DNA of 64,000 nucleotides from Xylaria sp. FL1777 (Eukaryota > Ascomycota > Sordariomycetes > Xylariales > Xylariaceae): positions 232,531 to 296,530 of the forward strand of contig MU400558.1 of assembly GCA_022578965.1 (NCBI GenBank), given 5' to 3'. The notes below the pieces were generated by a model. It searched no databases and was not told the origin of the DNA. It saw only the letters and a list, made by a program, of their open reading frames with translations. The position numbers were made by a program, and so were the translations under genes. Numbering within the stretch: the stretch's first letter is position 1; each line of letters opens with the position of its first letter. Below are positions 2,488 through 64,000 of the stretch, in pieces.

Positions 2488-4349
2488 AGCACGAAGTTGA
2501 TCAATTGTGACGGATATCCTCTTTATGCCAGGAGGGGTACTTGGAAACCCGAATATCGGATGCCGGTGCCCGCGAATATAGGAAGATATTGACATACGCC
2601 TCAAATATTCTGTTCGTCCCGGCGCAAGCTCAAACATCCCGCGAGTAGGCTTTCGGGTTGCATGTTCTGTGTGTGATCGGTGTCCGCGTGACTGCTGATT
2701 TCCTGCGGTGCTTAAACTAGGTAATAAGAGTTCTCGAGTCCTGCCATTCGGTTGCCCGATTCCGCACATATGCGTAATGTCGCTCTGCCCACTTTCTGAG
2801 TGCATGAAGACCTGTTGTCCAATGTTCCTCTCTCCCTTTCTTTCTTTCTTTCTTTTTTCTTTTCCCTTCCTCTTTTTCTTTTTCTCTTCTTCGTAGAATA
2901 TCGAATTCCTAACGTCCTGACGTGGTCGCTGAGGGATAGAGACGTTACAGGGTTCATCCCCTTAAAAGTGCGGGTGTGGCATCACTTAAGACGTGCATCA
3001 GCCACATGTGCTACAGCTACCGTCGGCCAATAGGACCGAGTAATTCGGCTAGTTCCCAATGGCATTCCCCAAGCTTTATGAAATGTGGCAGCGGCTTTGT
3101 GAGCCACCGGGCGTTGTTGTGTAGCGCATAGTACCTACCGCATGTACCTCCCCAGGTACCTATCTAGGCTCTTACCTACAGTAGTATAGTGTATGTTTAG
3201 TGTAGTTTAGGCTTTGTAAGTCACTAATCAGGGCATTCTCTAATCTGTCTGGTCAGGCCTATCAGCGCATCCTACTCTGCTCAGTAGCAAGTACCAGGAC
3301 AATTAATCTCGCCCCGGGTCGTTTCAAGCCAGCCCGGACCCCACCCATTCATTCCCATTTGAATTTTACATTCGTTGGTTCGTGGCCCCCTGCTCTTAGT
3401 CTTGGTCTTGGTCTCTGTCTCAGTCCTCGGCTGGTGATGGGGCATTCTGCATTTTACATTTTTATTCACCTACAGCGGGTAGAGCCAATGGCTCTTCTCC
3501 CCCACCTCAAAACGCCAGACCCCCAGGAATGCGTTATTGATTGACTGCCACCTGTTATTAGATCTGTGCACTGTGAGGCAACGGTTTGTTTCTCCCTTTG
3601 TTCCTCAACGGCGCCTGGCTACAAGTCCCCATGTCCTTGCAGCGCGCCTTGAGAGTCTAACACAGCTGGCTAAGTCATCCAAGACCTGCCGAGATCTGCA
3701 CCAAACCAATCTCAATACTGGGGCCGTGCCTTTTGAGACCACCTTTGATACTACCCTCGACACTACTTACTTAAGTAGGTAGTGTACGCGTAGGGTACTG
3801 AGTAACTGTAAGTACCTATCTAGGTAGGTGCACTAGCCTGTCTAGCACTAGACTAAATTGCACGGGGATCCTCGAATCCTTGTCCAGGAAGTTATTAATA
3901 TTTTCCTGCTCAGGACAGGTACCGACGTACTTATGCGTAGGTACACTACCAAGTAACCTACAGTATACCTCCTACCATAACTACCTACTGCCATACATGT
4001 ACACTACCTTACAGATCACTACCGTACTGGGACTTAGTCAAGGCGAAGAAAGAGACGAAAACCAGTGCGACGCGGCCCTCCAAAGACCCGGATCGCAGTC
4101 CCATTCCGCCGCCTCCCCCAACCCCTTGCAAGCACCAGCCCGACGTCCAACTCCCCCAGCAGCAGGGGCCCTGTAGTTGACATTTTCCATTATCGTGCAA
4201 GCCGAAGGGTCAGAAATTTCACTTGCGCTCTCAATTCATGAGTCGATCCATTCATTCATCCATTCATTCATTTAACCCTTCTTTCCTTGAGGCTGTCCCC
4301 TCTAGTCTAGGTCCATGCCACTGGTTCCCTCGACCACTTGCTGGCCAAG
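2488..4349. other. Intergenic region with pyrimidine tract and TAGGTA-type words
   Basis: No gene is supported in this 1.9 kb. It holds a 68-nt uninterrupted pyrimidine run at 2825-2892 and clusters of TACCTA/TAGGTA words around 3130-3215, 3765-3835 and 3930-4010. The right part should contain the promoter and 5' leader of the Tea4/Bud14 gene, including a CATT repeat near 4247-4272. Confidence 0.6.
2825..2892 (+). repeat. 68-nt polypyrimidine (CTTT-rich) tract
   Basis: Every base from 2825 to 2892 is C or T, including several TTTC units. It lies 340 bp downstream of the GH18 stop codon. Such tracts occur in fungal core promoters, but no start codon follows closely here, so a simple-sequence origin is as likely. 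Confidence 0.8.
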
Positions 4350-15239: not shown

Positions 15240-16459
15240 ATGAAAGGCATCATCACACCTGCGCGCGGCCGTCCGGCCAAGGTCACCAAACCAAGCGCCA
15301 ACCCGCGAGGCCGTCCGGTGCGTCGCGGCGACACGGTCCCCAACCAAGATCCCGATCTCGAGGGTCCCATTGTAGAAGAAGAAGACGGCAACGACGACGA
15401 AGACGCCGACGTGGACGCCGAGAACGAACAGGACCACCCCCAGGAGGACCACCAGCACCAACAGCAGCAGCACCAGCATCAGCACCAGCACCACCAACAC
15501 CCACATCAGCAACACCTGCAGCCACAGCACCATGCCGACTTCGACTCGGAGGCCTCTGCGGCTGCTGCTGCCGCTGCCGCTGCCGTTCATCACCAGCAAC
15601 AGCAGCAGCAGCAGCAGCAGCAGCAACATCACCAGCCGCTCGACTTGACTGCAGCCAGCATTCTCGCGAGCAGCGTTAATAACCCGAATGACCAGCCACA
15701 CCATCCAGATCTAGGCGGCCCCCACGGCCCCCCTATGGATGGACCTCCAGTCGACGTGAACACCACCGAGAATCTAGCTAGGGAGTCGGGCTACAACAAT
15801 GTGGTGGTCGAGAGTGCACTCGCCAAGCGTCTAGCGCGAGAACCCGGCATGCGCCTTGCTCAGCAACGGCGTCCAGAACAGGCCCTCAATCTGCAACGAC
15901 GCAGTAATGTCGAAGCTCTGTTTGCTCACATTGCTGGTGAAGCTGCTCCAATACCGTGTAAGAACTGCCACAAGGGCCATGGACCGTGGACTACATGTGT
16001 CGTCGTGGACGGCCAAATGTGCGGTAGCTGTGCCAATTGTTGGTTCAACGCCTCGGGAGCTAGATGCTCTTTCCACGGTAGACGCCTCCAATCTAGTTCC
16101 ATCTTGGAACCATAGAGCTAACTGATTGCTTAGAAACCCGAAACCCTGCCACACACGCCGGCCAGGTCATGGCAGGCGACGCTATGGGATTTCAACTACC
16201 TCCAGCCCCGCCTCAGGCCATGGCTCCCTTCAATTTCGCATCGATTCCAGCATCGTCTGATCCCGTCGTCCGGTACACAGTCGAGCAAGCTATGGCCCAA
16301 GTTCGAGGCGCTGATAAGAAAACACGCTATATGCTTATGATCGAGGCTGCGGCGCGTCAGCTTGCTTTCCAAATCGCCATGTACGAAGATACTGTCCAAG
16401 AGGAACAGCAACAGCAAGGACCGCCTCCTGCCGTTATGAATGATCCAGATGCGCCTTAG
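15240..16459 (+). CDS. AT-hook, poly-Gln/His, DUF3716-domain nuclear protein
   Basis: Two exons, 15240-16077 and 16134-16459, encode 387 residues. Two GRP cores near the N-terminus (ARGRPAK and PRGRPVRRG) look like AT-hooks that bind the minor groove of AT-rich DNA. An acidic stretch follows, then about 80 residues of Gln/His repeats with an Ala run, encoded by CAG/CAC/GCT repeats (about 15440-15640). A cysteine-rich module comes next, with cysteines in CKNCHKGHGPWTTC and MCGSCANCWFNASGARCSFH; this matches DUF3716, a fungal domain of unknown function, possibly metal-binding. The C-terminal exon is predicted helical and ends in a Gln-rich tail. A role in chromatin or transcription is an inference from the AT-hooks. 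The first in-frame ATG is used; no extension upstream has family support. Confidence 0.8.
15440..15640 (+). repeat. CAG/CAC/GCT trinucleotide repeats coding for Gln, His and Ala runs
   Basis: In-frame CAG, CAC, CAA and GCT/GCC codons dominate this stretch, including an 8-9 residue Ala run and an 11-residue Gln run at about 15597-15630. Such tracts change length readily between strains and are common in fungal transcription-related proteins. Confidence 0.85.
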
Positions 16460-56698: not shown

Positions 56699-58312
56699 TC
56701 AATAGCTCCGAGGCAGCAGCAGCACCTTCTCGCTAATGTAATTCAGGATCATCTCCCGGCTGACAGGCGCGATCCTGGGCACCAAGCACTCCCTCAGCCA
56801 GCGCTCGACGTCGTACTCCATCGCGTAGCCCACTATTATCGCTGGAGTCAGTAATTACTCTTTTAGGTAAATATTATGCCACTGATGCATGCTCCCGAGA
56901 CATGTTAGGAGTTATCAGGTTACTAGAAAGGGAAGAAAATGACTCCAGGCCTGCACTTACTGCCGCCGTGCGTCATCACGGCCCTCTCGCAGGCCGTGAA
57001 CGCCGCCTCGGCCGCCACGTACTTGGCGCTGTTCGCCGCGATGCCGACGGCGTCTTGTCGCGTCGTCGCCGAGTCCCCCTCCCTGCTCTTGTCGTACAGT
57101 CTTGCCGCGTGGTACGTCGCCAGCTTCGCCGCCTCGAGCTTCATGTACGCGTCTGCCAGCGGGTGGGCAATGCCTTGGTTCATGCCGATGGGCCGCTGGA
57201 AAACGACGCGGTCGCGCGCATACTCGGCGGCCCTCTTGAGCGCGGCGTACCCGAGACCGAGCGCCTCGCCCGCGAGCAGGCAGCGCTCGGCGTTCATGCC
57301 GTGGAGGATGATCTTGAAGCCTTGGTTCTCGCTCCCGATCAGCGTGTTGGCTGGGATCTTGTAATTGTCGAAAAACACCTCGTTGGCGTCGATGGCGCGG
57401 CCGCCCATCTTCTTGATCCTGCGCATGTCGAGGCCGGGGGCGTCCCTGTCCAGGTCGATGCAGAACATCGAAAGGCCCTCGCTTGGCTTCTTCACTTCTT
57501 CTAATGGGGTCGTCCGAGCCAGCAAAATCATCTTCTTCGCTACTTGGGCACATGTGATCCATATCTTCTGCCCTGTGACGCTGTACGAGCCATCATCCTG
57601 CTTTTCCGCGACCGTTCGCAGCCTCAAGGTGTCCAGTCCCGTGTTGGGCTCTGTTACTCCGAAGCATGTCCGCCACTTGCCCGATATGATGTTCGGTATC
57701 GTGCTTTCTAACTGCTCCTTAGTTCCGAACTTAGCTAGGGGCTGTGTCGCATACTGTAGCACTCGAAGTCAGTTATCGCCTTCTGAGAGTCATATATTAG
57801 AATGCCAGAAGCGTTGAAACATTTTAAAACATTATTTCGGCCCGAAAGCGAACTCTTATACTGTCAAGGTGGCTAAACGGGAAATTGTCCCCTGTAATTG
57901 TTATACTTACTACATTCGCATGGATGGCCTGCGCGCCAGCCATCCCTGCCCCTGACTCGGTGATGGTCTGCATCATCATAGTAGCTTCGGATATGCCCAG
58001 TCCGGAGCCGCCCAGCGACTCTGGCAGAGCAATTCCCAACCAGCCGTCCTTAGCCAATGCGGCATGGAAGTCCTTCGGATCTGCCTCGGTCTGGTCACGC
58101 TCTTGCCAGTACGAATTGGAGAACTGCGAGCACACAGCGCCCACGGCCTCCCTAACCGTCAGTTGATTCTGGCTGAACCCAGACATCTCCATGATCCCTC
58201 GGCGGGCTGTGGATGAGAATCCATGGCGGCCAGTAGAAGGTAGTCTGTGGGCCCCTTTACTCGCGATTCGCAAGCCGCCGGTTATCATCCTCGTACAGAG
58301 TTGACGAACCAT
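56699..58312 (-). CDS. Acyl-CoA dehydrogenase family protein, likely mitochondrial
   Basis: Three exons on the minus strand, 57911-58312, 56961-57753 and 56699-56832, encode 442 residues. The N-terminus (MVRQLCTRMITGGLRIASKGAHRLPSTGRHGF) is an Arg-rich presequence. The ACAD fold follows: ALPESLGGSGLG, ANVYATQPLAKFGTKEQ at a splice junction, CFGVTEPNTGLDT and ITCAQVA for FAD and substrate, GENQGFKIILHGMNAERCLLAG, and the FQRPIGMNQGIAHPLAD helix. The C-terminus reads MTHGGMGYAMEYDVERWLRE; the usual YEGT glutamate is absent, and the Glu in NAERCLLAG sits where isovaleryl- and long-chain enzymes keep theirs. It would oxidise an acyl-CoA thioester, feeding the electron-transfer flavoprotein. Its second intron is one copy of the introner-like element. 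It is divergent from a CoA-transferase gene. An alternative start lies at 58372. Confidence 0.9.
56833..56960 (-). mobile_element. Introner-like element, copy A (intron 2 of the acyl-CoA dehydrogenase gene)
   Basis: This 128-nt intron (donor GTAAGT, acceptor ATAG) is about 90% identical along its whole length to the 125-nt intron at 62257-62381 in the transporter gene. There are 12 substitutions and one 3-nt gap near the donor. The similarity stops at the splice sites, and the flanking exons are unrelated apart from TGG after the acceptor. Both introns are phase 1, and both copies run in the sense of their host gene. Three blocks of 20 nt are perfectly shared. Full-length introns copied between unrelated genes are the definition of introner-like elements. 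Confidence 0.85.
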
Positions 58313-59325
58313 GATTTTGGACGTGGCTTGCGACGGTCCCTTGATAGATAGGAGAAAAAAGACAGACAACACAGATCACGTCTCTGGCGGTCCCTTCAAC
58401 ATCATGTTAAAAAGTAGTAAAAACTTCAGCCAAGGAGGCTCATAACTTTGAAAACTATTATACAAGTTAGTGAAGTTGCCTCATAACATTGTCTTCAGAG
58501 CCGGAAATACGACGGATATATGGTTTTCTCCAACAGTTCTGTAGGTTAGACCCATCTGGAAATACTGTGGATACAATACAGGAAATCGAGGACGCACTAG
58601 ATATGCCCATGGAGCTCTCTGGAAACGCGGCGGATATATTACTTCCTCGTTACTAATAGGGCCCTGTAAGGACTGTGTGGGCTGCCCCATAGACACAATC
58701 GTAGAGGAAGCTATTTAGTAGAGGTTTCTTCAGATCGCCCCTCCTGAAATAAACCGGTTATACTATCTCTCTACGACGAAAAGGAGCCTTTAGATGTAAG
58801 CCTCGCCAGTGCCGTTGCGGGGAATCTATTCGCAAGCTACCTACATGTAGGATAGCCTACCCGGAAATGCGGCGGATATACTATCTCTCCACAGCCAAGA
58901 GAGGCTTCTTGGAGGTACCTTTGTGGGGTAGCTGTTTAGACTTGAACAAGTGTCACACTCAGCTTTTAAACTTTCTCCAGTCTACGAGTACAAGCTTCTC
59001 AGTCCGTCTAGTTGCAGAGAGCGATGGAATGCAAGTAGATACCCCGAATTTATTAACCGATACCGGAATTTATGTGTTCAACGTAGGGTATAGTAGAAAG
59101 TTAACCCGGATCTAAATTACCTGGGTAGATCATAAACCTCGGTCCAAGTATTACTACGTTGGACGAAACCCTAACAAAGCAAAGAATGGGCGAAATAGGC
59201 ATCTGTTGAGTCTATCGGCTATTATACTAACTACCGCAGGTCACGCCGCTTGCACCAAGGCTAAGTCATATCTTTCTCAACATTTCACTGGTAATTTTAT
59301 GTTGTATTTTTAGTTGGAGTTGATC
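58313..59325. promoter_or_regulatory. Divergent promoter region of the dehydrogenase and CoA-transferase genes, with repeats
   Basis: About 1 kb between two divergent start codons contains four copies of an 18-nt word, GGAAAYRCGGCGGATATA, at 58503, 58558, 58621 and 58863. Looser similarity continues after each copy. The CGG-containing word could be a binding site for a Zn2Cys6 regulator shared by both genes, but it could also be a decayed tandem repeat. No coding frame is supported. Confidence 0.5.
58503..58950 (+). repeat. Degenerate interspersed repeat GGAAAYRCGGCGGATATA plus trailing similarity
   Basis: Copies start at 58503, 58558, 58621 and 58863, differing at two to four positions. After 58621 and 58863, and after GGTTATACTATCTCTC near 58757, a further 40-60 bases align loosely (ACTATCTCTCCACAGC, then AGAGG, then GTGGGG). 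This suggests old duplicated units of roughly 60-120 bp. Confidence 0.7.
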
Positions 59326-60630
59326 ATGACTCTTCGGATACCGAATCACATGACAGCAACGGCTTATAAGTCGTTTCAGTCTTTTGGAGCTGCAACCCGT
59401 CCCTTATCATCAAGCCGAAGGATATGCCTTGAAGGAAGACACCAACCCGCCAAGCAAAGAGCCTACGTATCGACTGGAAGCAGAAAACACCTGCCCCTCG
59501 ATGGTATAACCGTCGTCAGCTTAGAGCAAGCTATTGCGGCGCCATTCTGCACCCGCCACCTCGCCGATTTCGGTGCGCGGGTGATCAAGGTAGAGCGGCC
59601 GGTGGTGGGAGACTTTGCGCGCGCCTATGACACAAGAGTCAACGGGTTGGCGTCGCATTTCGTCTGGACAAGCCGCTCGAAGGAGAGTCTAGCACTCGAT
59701 TTAAAACGAGAGAGAGACCTCGATGTTTTAAAGAAGCTGCTGAAGAAAGCCGATGTCCTGGTACAGAATCTCGCGCCGGGCGCGACCGATCGTTTAGGTG
59801 TCTCATACGCGAAGCTGAAAGATGAGCATCCGTCTTTGATTGTTTGTGACATATCGGGCTACGGGGACAGTGGCCCCTACCGCGATAAGAAGGCTTATGA
59901 TCTCCTTGTCCAGAGCGAGGCTGGTATGCTCTCGATCACGGGCACTGGGACGGAACAAGCTAAGGTCGGAATCTCGATCGCGGACATTGCATCTGGGATG
60001 TATGCCTACTCAGGCATCTTGGCCGCGCTGATGAAGCGGGGCAAGACCGGTAAGGGGTCTAGGGTCGATATCAGTATGTTGGAAGCCATGGCAGAGTGGA
60101 TGAGTTTTCCCATGTACTACGCGTACAACGGACAGCCACCGCCGAGCCGAAGTGGTGCTTCCCACGCATCAATCTACCCTTACGGGCCGTTTGAAACCGG
60201 CGGAGGTGGCTCAGTGATGCTTGGAGTCCAGAACGAGAGGGAATGGGTTAAACTTTGTACAGAGGTGCTGGAACTACCAGACCTAGCTACGGATCCTCGA
60301 TTTGTCAACAGCTCGCTCCGTTCAGAAAACCGCAAAGAGCTCAAGAAGATCATATGCGATGGTTTCGCCAACCTGTCAGCCGAAGAAGTACTGCGTCGGC
60401 TTGATAAAGCCCAGATTGCCAACGCACAGGTCAAGGATATGCAGGGTTTATGGAACCATGAACAACTGCGGGCACGCGAGAGGTGGACTGAAGTTGAGAC
60501 GCCAAAGGGCAGGATACCGGCATTACTGCCTCCTGGTATTGCAAGTACGGAAGACACGCGAATGGACAAAGTTCCCGAAGTTGGAGAGCACAATGCAGCG
60601 ATTCTAGCTGAACTGGGTCTAGAAGAGTGA
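59326..60630 (+). CDS. Class III CoA-transferase (CaiB/BaiF family), likely mitochondrial
   Basis: A single exon of 434 residues. The leader (TATAYKSFQSFGAATRPLSSSRRICLEGRHQPAKQRAYVSTGSRKH) is rich in Arg and Ser, with almost no acids: a mitochondrial presequence. The CoA-transferase core follows: LDGITVVSLEQAIAAPFCTRHLADFGARVIKVERPVVGDFAR, the SKESLALDLK and NLAPGATDRLG segments, ISGYGDSGPYRDKKAYDLLVQSEAG with the catalytic Asp near residue 192, and GKGSRVDISMLEAMAEWM. Family members move CoA between carboxylic acids through mixed anhydride and thioester intermediates; the human mitochondrial relative SUGCT acts on dicarboxylates such as glutarate. Divergent from the acyl-CoA dehydrogenase and upstream of a Dal5-type carrier, it would activate an imported acid before dehydrogenation. 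Its substrate is an inference. Confidence 0.9.
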   Translation: MTLRIPNHMTATAYKSFQSFGAATRPLSSSRRICLEGRHQPAKQRAYVSTGSRKHLPLDGITVVSLEQAIAAPFCTRHLADFGARVIKVERPVVGDFARAYDTRVNGLASHFVWTSRSKESLALDLKRERDLDVLKKLLKKADVLVQNLAPGATDRLGVSYAKLKDEHPSLIVCDISGYGDSGPYRDKKAYDLLVQSEAGMLSITGTGTEQAKVGISIADIASGMYAYSGILAALMKRGKTGKGSRVDISMLEAMAEWMSFPMYYAYNGQPPPSRSGASHASIYPYGPFETGGGGSVMLGVQNEREWVKLCTEVLELPDLATDPRFVNSSLRSENRKELKKIICDGFANLSAEEVLRRLDKAQIANAQVKDMQGLWNHEQLRARERWTEVETPKGRIPALLPPGIASTEDTRMDKVPEVGEHNAAILAELGLEE

Positions 60631-61647
60631 AGTGTAATACTAAGGTTTGTTGTGACAAGGCATCTAGTATGCGGTATAACACCGTCTTACATATTATATA
60701 ACTTCGTCCAGGTAAATACAATGCAGTCTTGCCGACGTCTCACATTGTCACTACCTATCTCCTATCGTCACCGGTCCTTGCGTTAGCTGAATTAGTATCA
60801 ACATTGCGGTATGCCTCCGGTGTCACCAAGGTGTACTTCTTAATCTCTTTGAGGCTGGTAGTCGGGTTAAGTGAGAATCCCACCCGTTAAGGGGGTCTTA
60901 TGAGTTACTCCAACACGCAATGGAGAAGCCAAAGATACCGATTCTATATTACATATACCAACATATGGCCATTTGTATTCAAATTTAAATTATAGTACTA
61001 CAAGTTTTGAATTGTGTCTAAACGGAGTCATAAGCCTCTAGATACTAAGTAAGTCATATCTCGAACCTCAGAAACACCATGTGGGATGGTCCATCCAGGC
61101 ACAACGACTTGGTCAGCAAATCTCGCCATACCGCTCCTGCTTAGGGAACTCATTTATGTCCGAATTGTCCTCAGCCCGTTTATTACACGGGGATTGGCTG
61201 GGTGAGATGCGGCGTCCACCCGCGGCATATCCCGAGTATAATACGATATCACGGCGTCATAGATAACATGGACCTATTCAGAAATAAATATCCCGACCTT
61301 CCCCCGCATCCGCGGTCATTCACAACACCGAGATAGCCTACTTACGACTCCCCCACAATCCCCGGACCCTAATAGATACTATCTAACCCAGGGTAGGGAC
61401 ACGATGACACCGTCCCCGCATCAGCATACCTAGGCTGGGAGAGCGTAAGCTACCTCCACAAGAAGCCCACGATGGCAAAAGTGTCGGTCAAAGCGATTTA
61501 AACATGCCAGCAATATCTTTAGTTAGGTGAATTGCGAGTTTTCGAAAGCACCACCAACGGTCTAACCCGGCGCGATCGCTCCCGGGCCAGTTGAACTTTC
61601 TTGCGGGCCGTTTTAAGGGGGACCATTCACTCAAACCGTAGGAACTT
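60631..61647. other. Intergenic region between CoA-transferase and transporter
   Basis: About 1 kb between two same-strand genes. It contains the 3' end of the CoA-transferase transcript and the promoter of the transporter gene. No gene is supported. Confidence 0.5.
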
Positions 61648-63569
61648 ATGAATATGGCCGAGGAAAAGGCTCTTTCTAGTACCTCAGGCGATCTGCCTAA
61701 GCCCGAACTGACCCAGATCGAGGACCAAACCGCCACTGAAGCAGCACGTGCCGAAATCGACACGCAGCTTTCCAGGAAGCTGGATCGTAAGTTTGACCGC
61801 CATATCATACCCTGGGTCTTTGGAATATGGTAAGAGGTCCTTCTAATCATATCTCCGGAACGATGAATGATCTCTATCTAGGAGAAGGATGGTGGGCGTT
61901 ATCTCGACCGTAAGTTTCACTCACACGTTCTCTATCCAGGCTCTTCGCCTTCATCGACCGCAGCAACATCGGCAACGCCAAGATCGCCGGACTACCAGAC
62001 GACCTAGGGATCTCGACGGGCACTACTTTCAACGTGGCACTGCTGGTCTTCTACATCCCGTACATCCTTGTCGACGTGCCTAGCAACTGGGTCGTGAAGC
62101 ACGTCAAGGCCGGCATCTACCTGCCGGCGCTCATCACGGGGTGGGGGCTCGTCAGCACGTTTCTTGGCTTCACGCGCTCGCTCGCCGGACTCGTCGTCGC
62201 TCGTCTGCTGCTGGGGTTGTTCGAGGGCGGCCTGCTTGGCGGCATCGTAGTGTATCGTATGTGCACTGGAGTCATTTTCTTCCCTCTCTGGTAACCTTAT
62301 GACTCCCAACATGTCTCGGGAGCATGCCTCAGGGGCATAATATTCACCCAAAAGAGTAATTACTGACTCGAGCGAGAATAGTGGCCATGTTCTACCCCCG
62401 ACACCAGATGCTGAGGCGGATTGGGTACTTCTACTGCGCGGCGCCGCTCTCGGGCGCTTTTGGTGGCCTTCTGGCAACGGGGCTATCTAAGATCCAGTAT
62501 GGTGGCTACAACCGCTGGCCGTGGATCTTCTTTGGTATGTTCGAGACGTATCCCACCCCTCATTTTCTTCTCTATCTGTTACTAGTTCTAAACTTACACG
62601 GCTCCTATAGTCGAGGGCATCGTGACGACTCTCTTTGGCATACTGTGCTTCTTCGTCATGCCTCACACGCCCGGCGATTCTAGTTTTCTGACGGAAGAAG
62701 AACGTGCCGCTGCGTTATCGCGGATGAAGATTGACAGCCATGGTGCGGTCTCAGAAGACGACGTGAACAATGAAAGGTTCGATTGGCACTGGGTTCGGAT
62801 GGCGTTCGCGGCCCCTCAGCTGTGGTTTTCCTCCTTTATCTGGTTCTTTCTCTTGGTCTCACTCTATGTTGGTCATCATCCATGCTTCTATATCCTAATG
62901 CTTCCGACTGACTCAAAAAATAGAGCTTTTCGCTTTTCTTGCCGACGATCATCAGCGGCTTAGACTATGAATCTACTCAGGCGCAGCTATTCACGGTTCC
63001 TCCAAACGTGGCAGCTGTTTTCGCTGTCTTGATCGTAACACGATTATCTGATTATGTAAAAGCACGAGGTCCTTTTATGGCCCTGGGCTGCTTGATAACG
63101 GCGGCAGGCTACGTCATGCTGCTCGCGTCGAAGAACAATGCGGTGCGGTACGCGGGGACTTTTGTGATAGCTATCGGAGTCTATCCGAACTCGGCATTAA
63201 TCATGGTGAGATCCCTCGTCAGATGGTTGAATTTCCTAGACTAATGTGTGCGTTAAGGGATGGCTTTCAAATAATATGGCGCCTCACTACGTCCGTGCTA
63301 CAGGCATTGGCTTTCTGATCGCGTTTGCGAATATCTCGGCTTTTATTGCGACGTTTATCTATCTGCCGAAAGACCAGCCGGACTACACCCTTGGACACTC
63401 GGTCAGTCTCGGGGCGATCGTTATCTGTCTCATCTTGGTGTGTACCCAAAGTCTATATCTTGGGTGGGAAAATAGGAGGCGGGCGCGAGGAGGTTGTGAC
63501 GATAGGTTGACACAGGGAAATGAAGATAGACTTGGGCACCGTCACCCAGAGTTCAGATATACCATATAA
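61648..63569 (+). CDS. Dal5-type (anion:cation symporter) MFS transporter
   Basis: Six exons, 61648-61829, 61940-62256, 62382-62534, 62611-62867, 62924-63205 and 63258-63569, encode 500 residues. The start of TM1 reads DRHIIPWVFGIWLFAFIDRSNIGNAKIAGL, the hallmark of the fungal anion:cation symporter (Dal5/Tna1/Liz1) family. Further family blocks are NVALLVFYIPYILVDVPSNWVVK, RLLLGLFEGGLLGGIVVYLAMFYPRHQMLRRIGYFY, and SALIMGWLSNNMAPHYVRATGIGFLIAFANISAFIATFIY. Twelve membrane spans and a plasma-membrane site are expected; relatives import carboxylate-type nutrients such as allantoate, nicotinate and pantothenate. Next to the CoA-transferase and acyl-CoA dehydrogenase, it likely takes up their acid substrate. 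Intron 2 is copy M of the introner-like element; the intron 4 donor is GTTGGT, unusual here. The first ATG is used, with a second at 61654. Confidence 0.92.
62257..62381 (+). mobile_element. Introner-like element, copy M (intron 2 of the Dal5-type transporter gene)
   Basis: This 125-nt intron (donor GTATGT, acceptor AATAG) is the partner of the intron at 56833-56960 on the opposite strand. Alignment from donor to acceptor gives 113 identities in 125 positions. A conserved 17-nt core at 62310-62326 (CATGTCTCGGGAGCATG) can fold into a hairpin with CATG/CATG ends. A TTACTGAC branch-site candidate lies about 20 nt before the acceptor and is shared by both copies. Confidence 0.85.
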
Positions 63570-64000
63570 AGGCCTAACAGCTATGAGTTATGTCTATGCG
63601 TGGGAACCTAGTATGTACGAATAGCAGACCGTATCAATACTAGATGTTGATTTGCTAACTTAATGCCACGTGAATGTAGACGCGTCACCGGTTCCTTACT
63701 CTTCATATTCTAGATTTTAGGAGTACAATATTATTTATAGTTTACCCCGGCCCTGCGTGGGCCGAGATAAAGGATAGGGTAGGAGACTAAAATAGCAGCT
63801 ACCTGTAGAAAGGCATAGGAGAACATGGTGTCGCTGGGGATTCTCTCACATGCTTCCAATTCCAGAGTACGAAATTAAGAGACCTAGATCGACACATTGA
63901 ATACATGTTACACGCATCGGACCAGCTGAACACCTTGTGCTATCTCCGGATGCATAGTTCGGTGAGACACCGGGACCGTACTGCGCTGAATTGAGACTTA
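63570..64000. other. Right-edge gene-free stretch
   Basis: The 3' flank of the transporter gene. No coding region or RNA was recognised before the window ends. Confidence 0.5.

Follow-up and report, generated by a model that had tools for sequence, protein, structure and literature searches.

Introner-like elements of the Dothideomycetes are near-identical spliceosomal introns that occur in unrelated genes, degenerate after insertion and form several families per genome, as the accessible part of Collemare et al. (2015, PMC4457414) describes them. In the available sections of Gozashti et al. (2022, PMC9860276), ascomycete introner families lack terminal inverted repeats (TIRs) and target-site duplications (TSDs). 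Within the Xylariales, stwintrons are characterized by near-terminal inverted repeats and by random integration with no exon bias in the accessible text of Fekete et al. (2025, PMC12403724), and near-terminal inverted repeats with random integration are likewise given for Hypoxylon sister stwintrons in that of Fekete et al. (2021, PMC8469720). Here, we analyzed a 64,000-nucleotide (nt) stretch of Xylaria sp. FL1777 (Sordariomycetes, Xylariales, Xylariaceae; contig MU400558.1, positions 232,531 to 296,530), hereafter the window, in which an acyl-CoA dehydrogenase gene and a transporter gene carry closely similar introns. Sequence comparison supports these two introns as members of an introner family (family A) present in many unrelated genes of the FL1777 genome.

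The family shares several features with the sister stwintrons and cropped sister introns of Hypoxylaceae and Xylariaceae (PMC8469720, PMC12403724), which come from the same order and, in the 2025 set, from the same family. As far as the accessible portions of those reports describe them, both comprise similar introns in unrelated genes, inserted seamlessly without duplications and bearing stem-forming near-terminal inverted repeats. Unlike sister stwintrons, the FL1777 introns are single canonical GT-AG introns and not [D1,2] twins. A [D1,2] stwintron reading was considered and rejected, as the G at -1 that such a twin needs is present in just 3/58 family A copies and in 0/9 copies of a sister family, family B. 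The FL1777 repeat also differs in sequence from the NTIRE-10 repeat printed in the available part of PMC12403724, and its 3' arm overlaps the presumed branch point, unlike in the sister stwintrons as described there. Its insertion sites are strongly biased, whereas sister stwintrons and sister introns are reported as random in the accessible text of both papers (PMC8469720, PMC12403724). The random exon context of type 2 cropped sister introns was not found; the context is instead a strong Y(A/C)|TGR, the bar marking the intron position. FL1777 is not named in the main text of PMC12403724, as far as that text was available.

The resemblance to the Dothideomycetes elements holds at the level of their description (PMC4457414), in a different class and with no target rule mentioned in the accessible part of that paper. 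The family also fits the introner description in the available sections of PMC9860276, namely similarity extending to near both splice boundaries; unlike the ascomycete introners covered there, it combines a near-terminal inverted repeat with a sequence-specific site, and it shows no TSD. No published report of the FL1777 family was found in the literature searched, which lay mostly outside subscription journals and was judged mostly at the level of search listings. The strain occurs in two papers that, going by their titles, concern genome mining and barcoding. The introner kind itself is already known; the present analysis adds to it an insertion rule, an inverted repeat and a sister family.

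The two window introns and their host genes are as follows.
56833..56960, minus strand: introner copy 1, 128 nt, GT...AG, phase 1, intron 2 of the acyl-CoA dehydrogenase gene (alignment and gene model).
62257..62381, plus strand: introner copy 2, 125 nt, GT...AG, phase 1, intron 2 of the MFS (Dal5-type) transporter gene (alignment and gene model).
56699..58312, minus strand: host gene 1, acyl-CoA dehydrogenase, 442 aa; exons 57911-58312, 56961-57753 and 56699-56832 (spliced model).
61648..63569, plus strand: host gene 2, MFS transporter, 500 aa; exons 61648-61829, 61940-62256, 62382-62534, 62611-62867, 62924-63205 and 63258-63569.

The end of exon 3 in host gene 1 and of exon 6 in host gene 2 were reckoned from protein length. 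The spliced models equal the deposited FL1777 proteins "acyl-CoA dehydrogenase/oxidase" (442/442 residues) and "MFS transporter-like protein" (500/500 residues). As in the original prediction, both introns are phase 1 and lie in sense to their hosts. Copy 1 interrupts the Met399 codon (A|TG) and copy 2 a Leu codon (C|TG). The two introns are identical at 113/125 aligned positions, with 12 mismatches and one 3-nt gap over 128 columns (BLASTN E about 1e-42 within the window); this similarity and the three identical 20-nt blocks reported earlier were both reproduced. The match had been said to run from donor to acceptor: it does start at the donor, and it continues 3 nt beyond the acceptor because both downstream exons begin with TGG.

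A mobile intron family had been proposed from these two introns alone, with a genome-wide BLAST named beforehand as its check and the existence of only two copies as one half of an outcome that would speak against it. When either window intron was searched against the genome, at least 40 copies were returned (40 scored from 95-96 candidates), all at least 88% identical. Patterns for the 5' and 3' ends, allowing up to 3 mismatches, matched the genome 85 and 86 times, and the reversed-pattern controls 0 and 0 times, by which chance similarity of the intron ends is excluded. A core pattern with the same tolerance gave 165 matches versus 17 for its reversed control, and the 100 of these 165 that were listed entered merging. 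Together, the 100 core, 85 5'-end and 86 3'-end matches define at least 110 distinct places from the three patterns. At least 94 of them, on 70 contigs, have at least one family end, which upholds the proposed family; 77 carry both ends at the spacing of the ~127-nt element. Of the 16 core-only places, some belong to family B and some look unrelated, and diverged family A copies are under-counted by such pattern searches. The core occurs without a recognizable 5' end at 7 places and without a recognizable 3' end at another 7, equal counts that do not point to systematic 5' truncation. A search at up to 3 mismatches detected no longer element with these ends, more diverged partners being beyond its reach: of the 85 5'-end matches, 77 have a 3' end within 140 nt, 7 more have the core and 1 has neither. 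No Rfam family reached the gathering score in the three loci scanned, and the exact 31-nt core was absent from the viral contigs searched.

For detailed comparison, 60 copies were collected from fetched loci (designated by L numbers), leaving out matches weaker than E 1e-8. Two of these, L014 and L041, were dropped for a 5' end that is not intact, and one copy boundary was shifted by one base by a scripted rule. The remaining 58 full-length copies show a mean identity of 94.7% to a 127-nt consensus (GTATGTGCACACTGGAGTCA...TTACTGACTCCAGCGAGCATAG) and a mean pairwise identity of 89.9%, with the closest pairs at 99.2% and 29/58 copies having a neighbor at 97% identity or more. This pattern fits several successive or parallel source copies, judging from the sequence identities. 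The copies are thus alike from splice site to splice site, multi-copy and housed in unrelated genes, as introners are. One member, L032, has AT instead of GT at the aligned 5' end.

Some individual loci are notable. The copy at L041:1447-1581 contains a tandem repeat in mid-element (CTTCCAACATGA-like units) and a diverged 5' part, and the first ~15 nt of L014:1486-1612 are unmatched, so that this intron seems to use a new donor, GTAAGT, within the former 5' arm. Two family A copies, L047:832-959 and 1446-1572, lie about 613 bp apart on contig C8.

Insertion was seamless wherever it could be judged. The residue split by copy 1 is M in 118/119 and I in one of the best 119 of 7998 acyl-CoA dehydrogenase homologs, and the residue split by copy 2 is L in 117/119 of the best 119 of 1018 transporter homologs, counted besides the FL1777 protein itself. 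In both genes, 119/119 of these best-listed homologs show no gap within 5 residues of the split codon; 40 acyl-CoA dehydrogenases were also aligned at the Met codon. In the dihydroxy-acid dehydratase and AA9 hosts, the junction is ungapped against solved structures. At these four judgeable sites, therefore, no base was gained or lost, and the introns are seamless. A fifth host, a guanine deaminase, is interrupted in a variable region, where the alignment has a 2-residue gap a little downstream of the junction, and is uninformative either way. TSDs of 2 and 3 nt were sought at offsets 0 to 7 on each side; over these 64 offset pairs none stands out, with a shared 2-mer in at most 9/58 copies and a shared 3-mer in at most 4/58.

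The insertion sites follow a pronounced rule, Y(A/C)|TGR, with |TG in 48/58 copies. In the downstream exon, 56 of the 58 copies have T at +1 and 49 have G at +2; on the upstream side, 40 have A and 12 have C at -1, and 52 have a pyrimidine (C or T) at -2. The full context Y[AC]|TG[AG] is present in 36/58 copies versus 500 matches in 60,108 coding bases, about 75 times the coding rate. Exact ends retrieved genome-wide, some of them in copies that were not fetched, agree with this: TG follows 17/20 exact 3' ends, and YA stands just before 21/33 exact 5' ends. Predicted ordinary introns at the family loci have |TG in 4/23, with G the commonest base at -1 (8/23), and the five ordinary introns of the two window host genes have it in 0/5. 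The predicted set is rough: two search settings gave 27 candidates versus 7 and 7 in controls, or 23 versus 4 and 7, so by these controls 17-30% of the 23 may be false, and a stricter search returned one.

The copies that could be judged predominantly have a sense coding context. The orientation test covered the 48 of 58 copies with at least 300 nt of upstream flank, using a codon model whose training set was 52 long open frames of the window and the fetched loci. A sense frame of at least 60 codons is open over the spliced junction in 48/48, and the antisense is often open too. The junction-spanning frame is longer in sense in 42/48 and has the better codon score in sense in 45/48, none of the 48 failing both tests, and the median open frame is 197 codons in sense and 101 in antisense. 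In a shorter 60-nt test, antisense scored better in 10/58. Retention of the intron would introduce an in-frame stop inside it in 57/58 copies. Pfam domains were matched in 17/20 spliced host pieces, picked among the longer or more recognizable ones, and are of many kinds: TPR, Fic, zinc cluster, nucleoside phosphorylase, HET, aminotransferase V (twice), tannase, amidohydrolase, fructosamine kinase, BCS1 lid, histidine phosphatase, sugar transporter, two short-chain dehydrogenases, AA9 and dihydroxy-acid dehydratase. The domain match does not always extend across the junction, and three pieces had no match.

Two methods concur on intron phase in 46/48 copies (35 phase 1, 9 phase 0 and 2 phase 2). 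Among the 36 motif-fitting copies, phases 0, 1 and 2 occur 7, 27 and 2 times, whereas the motif in coding sequence would give 16, 46 and 38% (p 2e-4). Phase 2 is scarcer than the local motif accounts for, which may reflect a longer motif or selection. Candidate positions of such a longer motif are G at -7 (36/58) and C at +5 (30/58).

Besides its splice sites, the consensus contains a subterminal inverted repeat in which CTGGAGTCA (positions 12-20) is complementary to TGACTCCAG (positions 110-118). This 9-nt perfect repeat, accompanied by a weaker outer stem, is set in by 11 nt at the 5' end and by 9 nt at the 3' end. In the window copies, its arms were located from the sequence and the consensus fold as follows.
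56940..56948, minus strand: 5' arm of the near-terminal inverted repeat (CTGGAGTCA), copy 1.
56842..56850, minus strand: 3' arm (TGACTCCAG), copy 1; overlaps the presumed branch point CTGAC (56848-56852).
62266..62274, plus strand: 5' arm of the near-terminal inverted repeat, copy 2.
62364..62372, plus strand: 3' arm (TGACTCGAG, one substitution), copy 2; overlaps the presumed branch point CTGAC (62363-62367).

The branch-point label for CTGAC is presumptive and follows what is usual in fungal introns. The folding energy of the consensus is -39.6 kcal/mol versus -26.9 +/- 3.5 for dinucleotide shuffles (z -3.6), and 52/58 family A copies retain at least 9 terminal pairs. From the distribution of changes among copies, the terminal stem looks like a property of the source copy.

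The sister family, family B, was found via the loci around two hits and is longer (146-162 nt in 9 copies). Its core (around AACATGTCTCGGGAGCAT) and its 3' end are similar to those of family A, and it is 73-83% alike to the query in BLAST and therefore probably older. Ten family B loci were collected; L094 was left out for its unclear acceptor, and in the remaining nine the ends were placed by visual inspection. TG stands downstream in 9/9 of these copies with clear ends, and -1 is A, C or T. Since family B follows the |TG rule too, the rule has probably lasted through the history of the lineage. Members of both families can occur side by side: an A and a B copy (L065:1186-1342 and 1458-1573) lie in one gene with 115 nt of exon between them, and another such pair (L072:2939-3065 and 3844-4005), 778 nt apart, is probably in one gene as well, a host whose sequence resembles a beta-glucosidase.

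We consider it somewhat probable that an introner family has been copied seamlessly into unrelated genes, usually before TG after YA or YC, by a transcript-coupled route. Such an RNA route is favored over a DNA transposon because nearly all testable copies lie in sense coding context, the ends of the element are the ends of the intron, and neither duplications nor a longer element accompany them. In outline, an excised intron RNA, its ends clamped by the near-terminal stem, would be inserted into coding DNA or mRNA at a |TG site selected by its sequence; the inserted RNA would then be converted to DNA, and the new copy would be spliced out at its own GT and AG ends. Possible steps include reverse splicing or break repair with intron RNA, the latter being what Fekete et al. 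propose for stwintrons in the accessible text of PMC12403724. The |TG rule is too strong for random breaks, so some sequence-selective step would be needed.

Several observations weigh against this transcript-coupled route. The |TG rule is matched by no RNA step that we can name. The antisense frame is longer in 6/48 copies, and the antisense codon score is better in 3/48. Predicted splicing rests on the two deposited gene models and on open frames, and the pre-insertion state is represented by undisturbed codons in protein homologs. Stem columns are no more conserved after insertion than the remainder of the element (divergence 0.052 versus 0.058-0.059 elsewhere), which leaves no evidence that an inserted intron still requires its stem. 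Covariation in the stem is weak when 6 of the 58 family A copies are taken together with 9 of family B: 91.3% of cells are paired, a level reached by 75/500 shuffles, and pairs changed on both sides number 3, in 4 cells, counts that 40 to 63 of 500 shuffles reach (40 for the 4 cells). In family B, end-to-end duplex energy falls below that of shuffles (p<0.05) in just 2/9 copies. Covariation and end pairing thus lend weak support to an RNA structure. The near-terminal inverted repeat taken up below also belongs among these points.

A more specific version, possible though doubtful, is that a spliceosomal intron inserts its own RNA at |TG in transcribed coding sequence, as a spliceosomal counterpart of group II intron retrohoming. 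The stem would clamp the intron ends and hide the branch point, and the rule would have been kept across at least two families of one lineage.

It is rather unlikely that the family is instead a DNA transposon introner resembling a miniature inverted-repeat transposable element (MITE), that is, a non-autonomous element with inverted repeats that a transposase cuts or copies into YA|TGR and whose ends become splice sites. A small DNA transposon would also carry a near-terminal inverted repeat such as CTGGAGTCA/TGACTCCAG, and the target is partly palindromic (YA|TR). In the available sections of PMC9860276, moreover, 78.5% of judgeable non-ascomycete families have TSDs, TIRs or both. No TSD emerged from the 64 offset pairs in the 58 FL1777 copies, however, and the repeats start 11 nt (5') and 9 nt (3') inside the consensus ends. 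Among the 48 testable copies, not one fails both tests of sense orientation, an autonomous partner with the same ends was not found at up to 3 mismatches, and the target bias is asymmetric and strongest on the 3' side.

Two other transposon types were considered separately. A CACTA-like reading would count CA and TG as part of the element; it was rejected on account of the split Met and Leu codons, which homologs conserve without gaps. Rejection of Helitron-like insertion between A and T rests on intron ends that are unlike TC...CTRR.

The |TG rule need not reflect an insertion preference if splicing were good only before TG and other insertions had been purged. Such selective retention would accommodate a bias that is as strong in the more diverged family B (9/9), as well as the phase 1 excess beyond the motif (7, 27, 2; p 2e-4), which local DNA preference alone does not predict. 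We nevertheless regard it as unlikely: 10/58 copies persist without |TG, and |TG occurs in 4/23 of the rough set of predicted introns at the same loci and in 0/5 ordinary host-gene introns.

Alternatively, |TG could be inherited from the parent site, if copies brought along parental exon bases and landed on matches by microhomology. Some related copies do share odd flanks, with L047 and L012 (99.2% alike) both at C|TC and L005 and L064, members of one subgroup, both at TA|TAA. Across the family, however, nearest neighbors share flanks from -2 to +2 at 0.70 versus 0.65 when permuted (p 0.12), a Mantel test on -1 to +2 gives r 0.13 (p 0.13), and no sharing extends past +/-3, which makes microhomology insertion quite improbable.

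Gene conversion between the two window introns, raised in the original prediction as a way of keeping them alike and suggested by their position about 5.3 kb apart in one gene group, is refuted as the sole explanation and vanishingly improbable as such, for the family occupies at least 94 places and each window copy has closer relatives elsewhere (93-96% versus 88%), so that conversion between the two is not needed.

These introns bear on how ascomycete introners multiply, a group reported without transposon signs and, in its Xylariales families, with random landing. The FL1777 family offers an insertion rule that is strong and can be tested, pre-insertion residues that are conserved, an inverted repeat, a more diverged sister family obeying the same rule, and copies up to 99.2% alike. 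It is a concrete case for studying how new introns arise, including RNA-based versus DNA-based intron gain.

Regarding the surroundings of the two introns, the acyl-CoA dehydrogenase gene, the transporter gene and the gene between them (59350-60630), which we take to encode a CaiB-type CoA-transferase, may form a conserved group (window 56699-63569). In Xylaria sp. FL0064, X. bambusicola and Nemania serpens, the dehydrogenase and transporter homologs lie on contigs of equal size. The acyl-CoA dehydrogenase proteins of Xylaria sp. FL0064 and FL0043 are 90% alike to that of FL1777.

Other repeats were also observed. Self-comparison of the window revealed inverted and direct repeats of 44-68 nt at 15450-15634. 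Another dispersed repeat of ~81 nt, cut by the window end, is present at 63935-64000 and at L028:50-130, with at least 40 matches among 116 candidates. A separate dispersed repeat of ~68 nt at L033:2172-2239 (G000:C26:111439-111539) has 41 genome matches that are 82-100% alike and is not obviously an intron.

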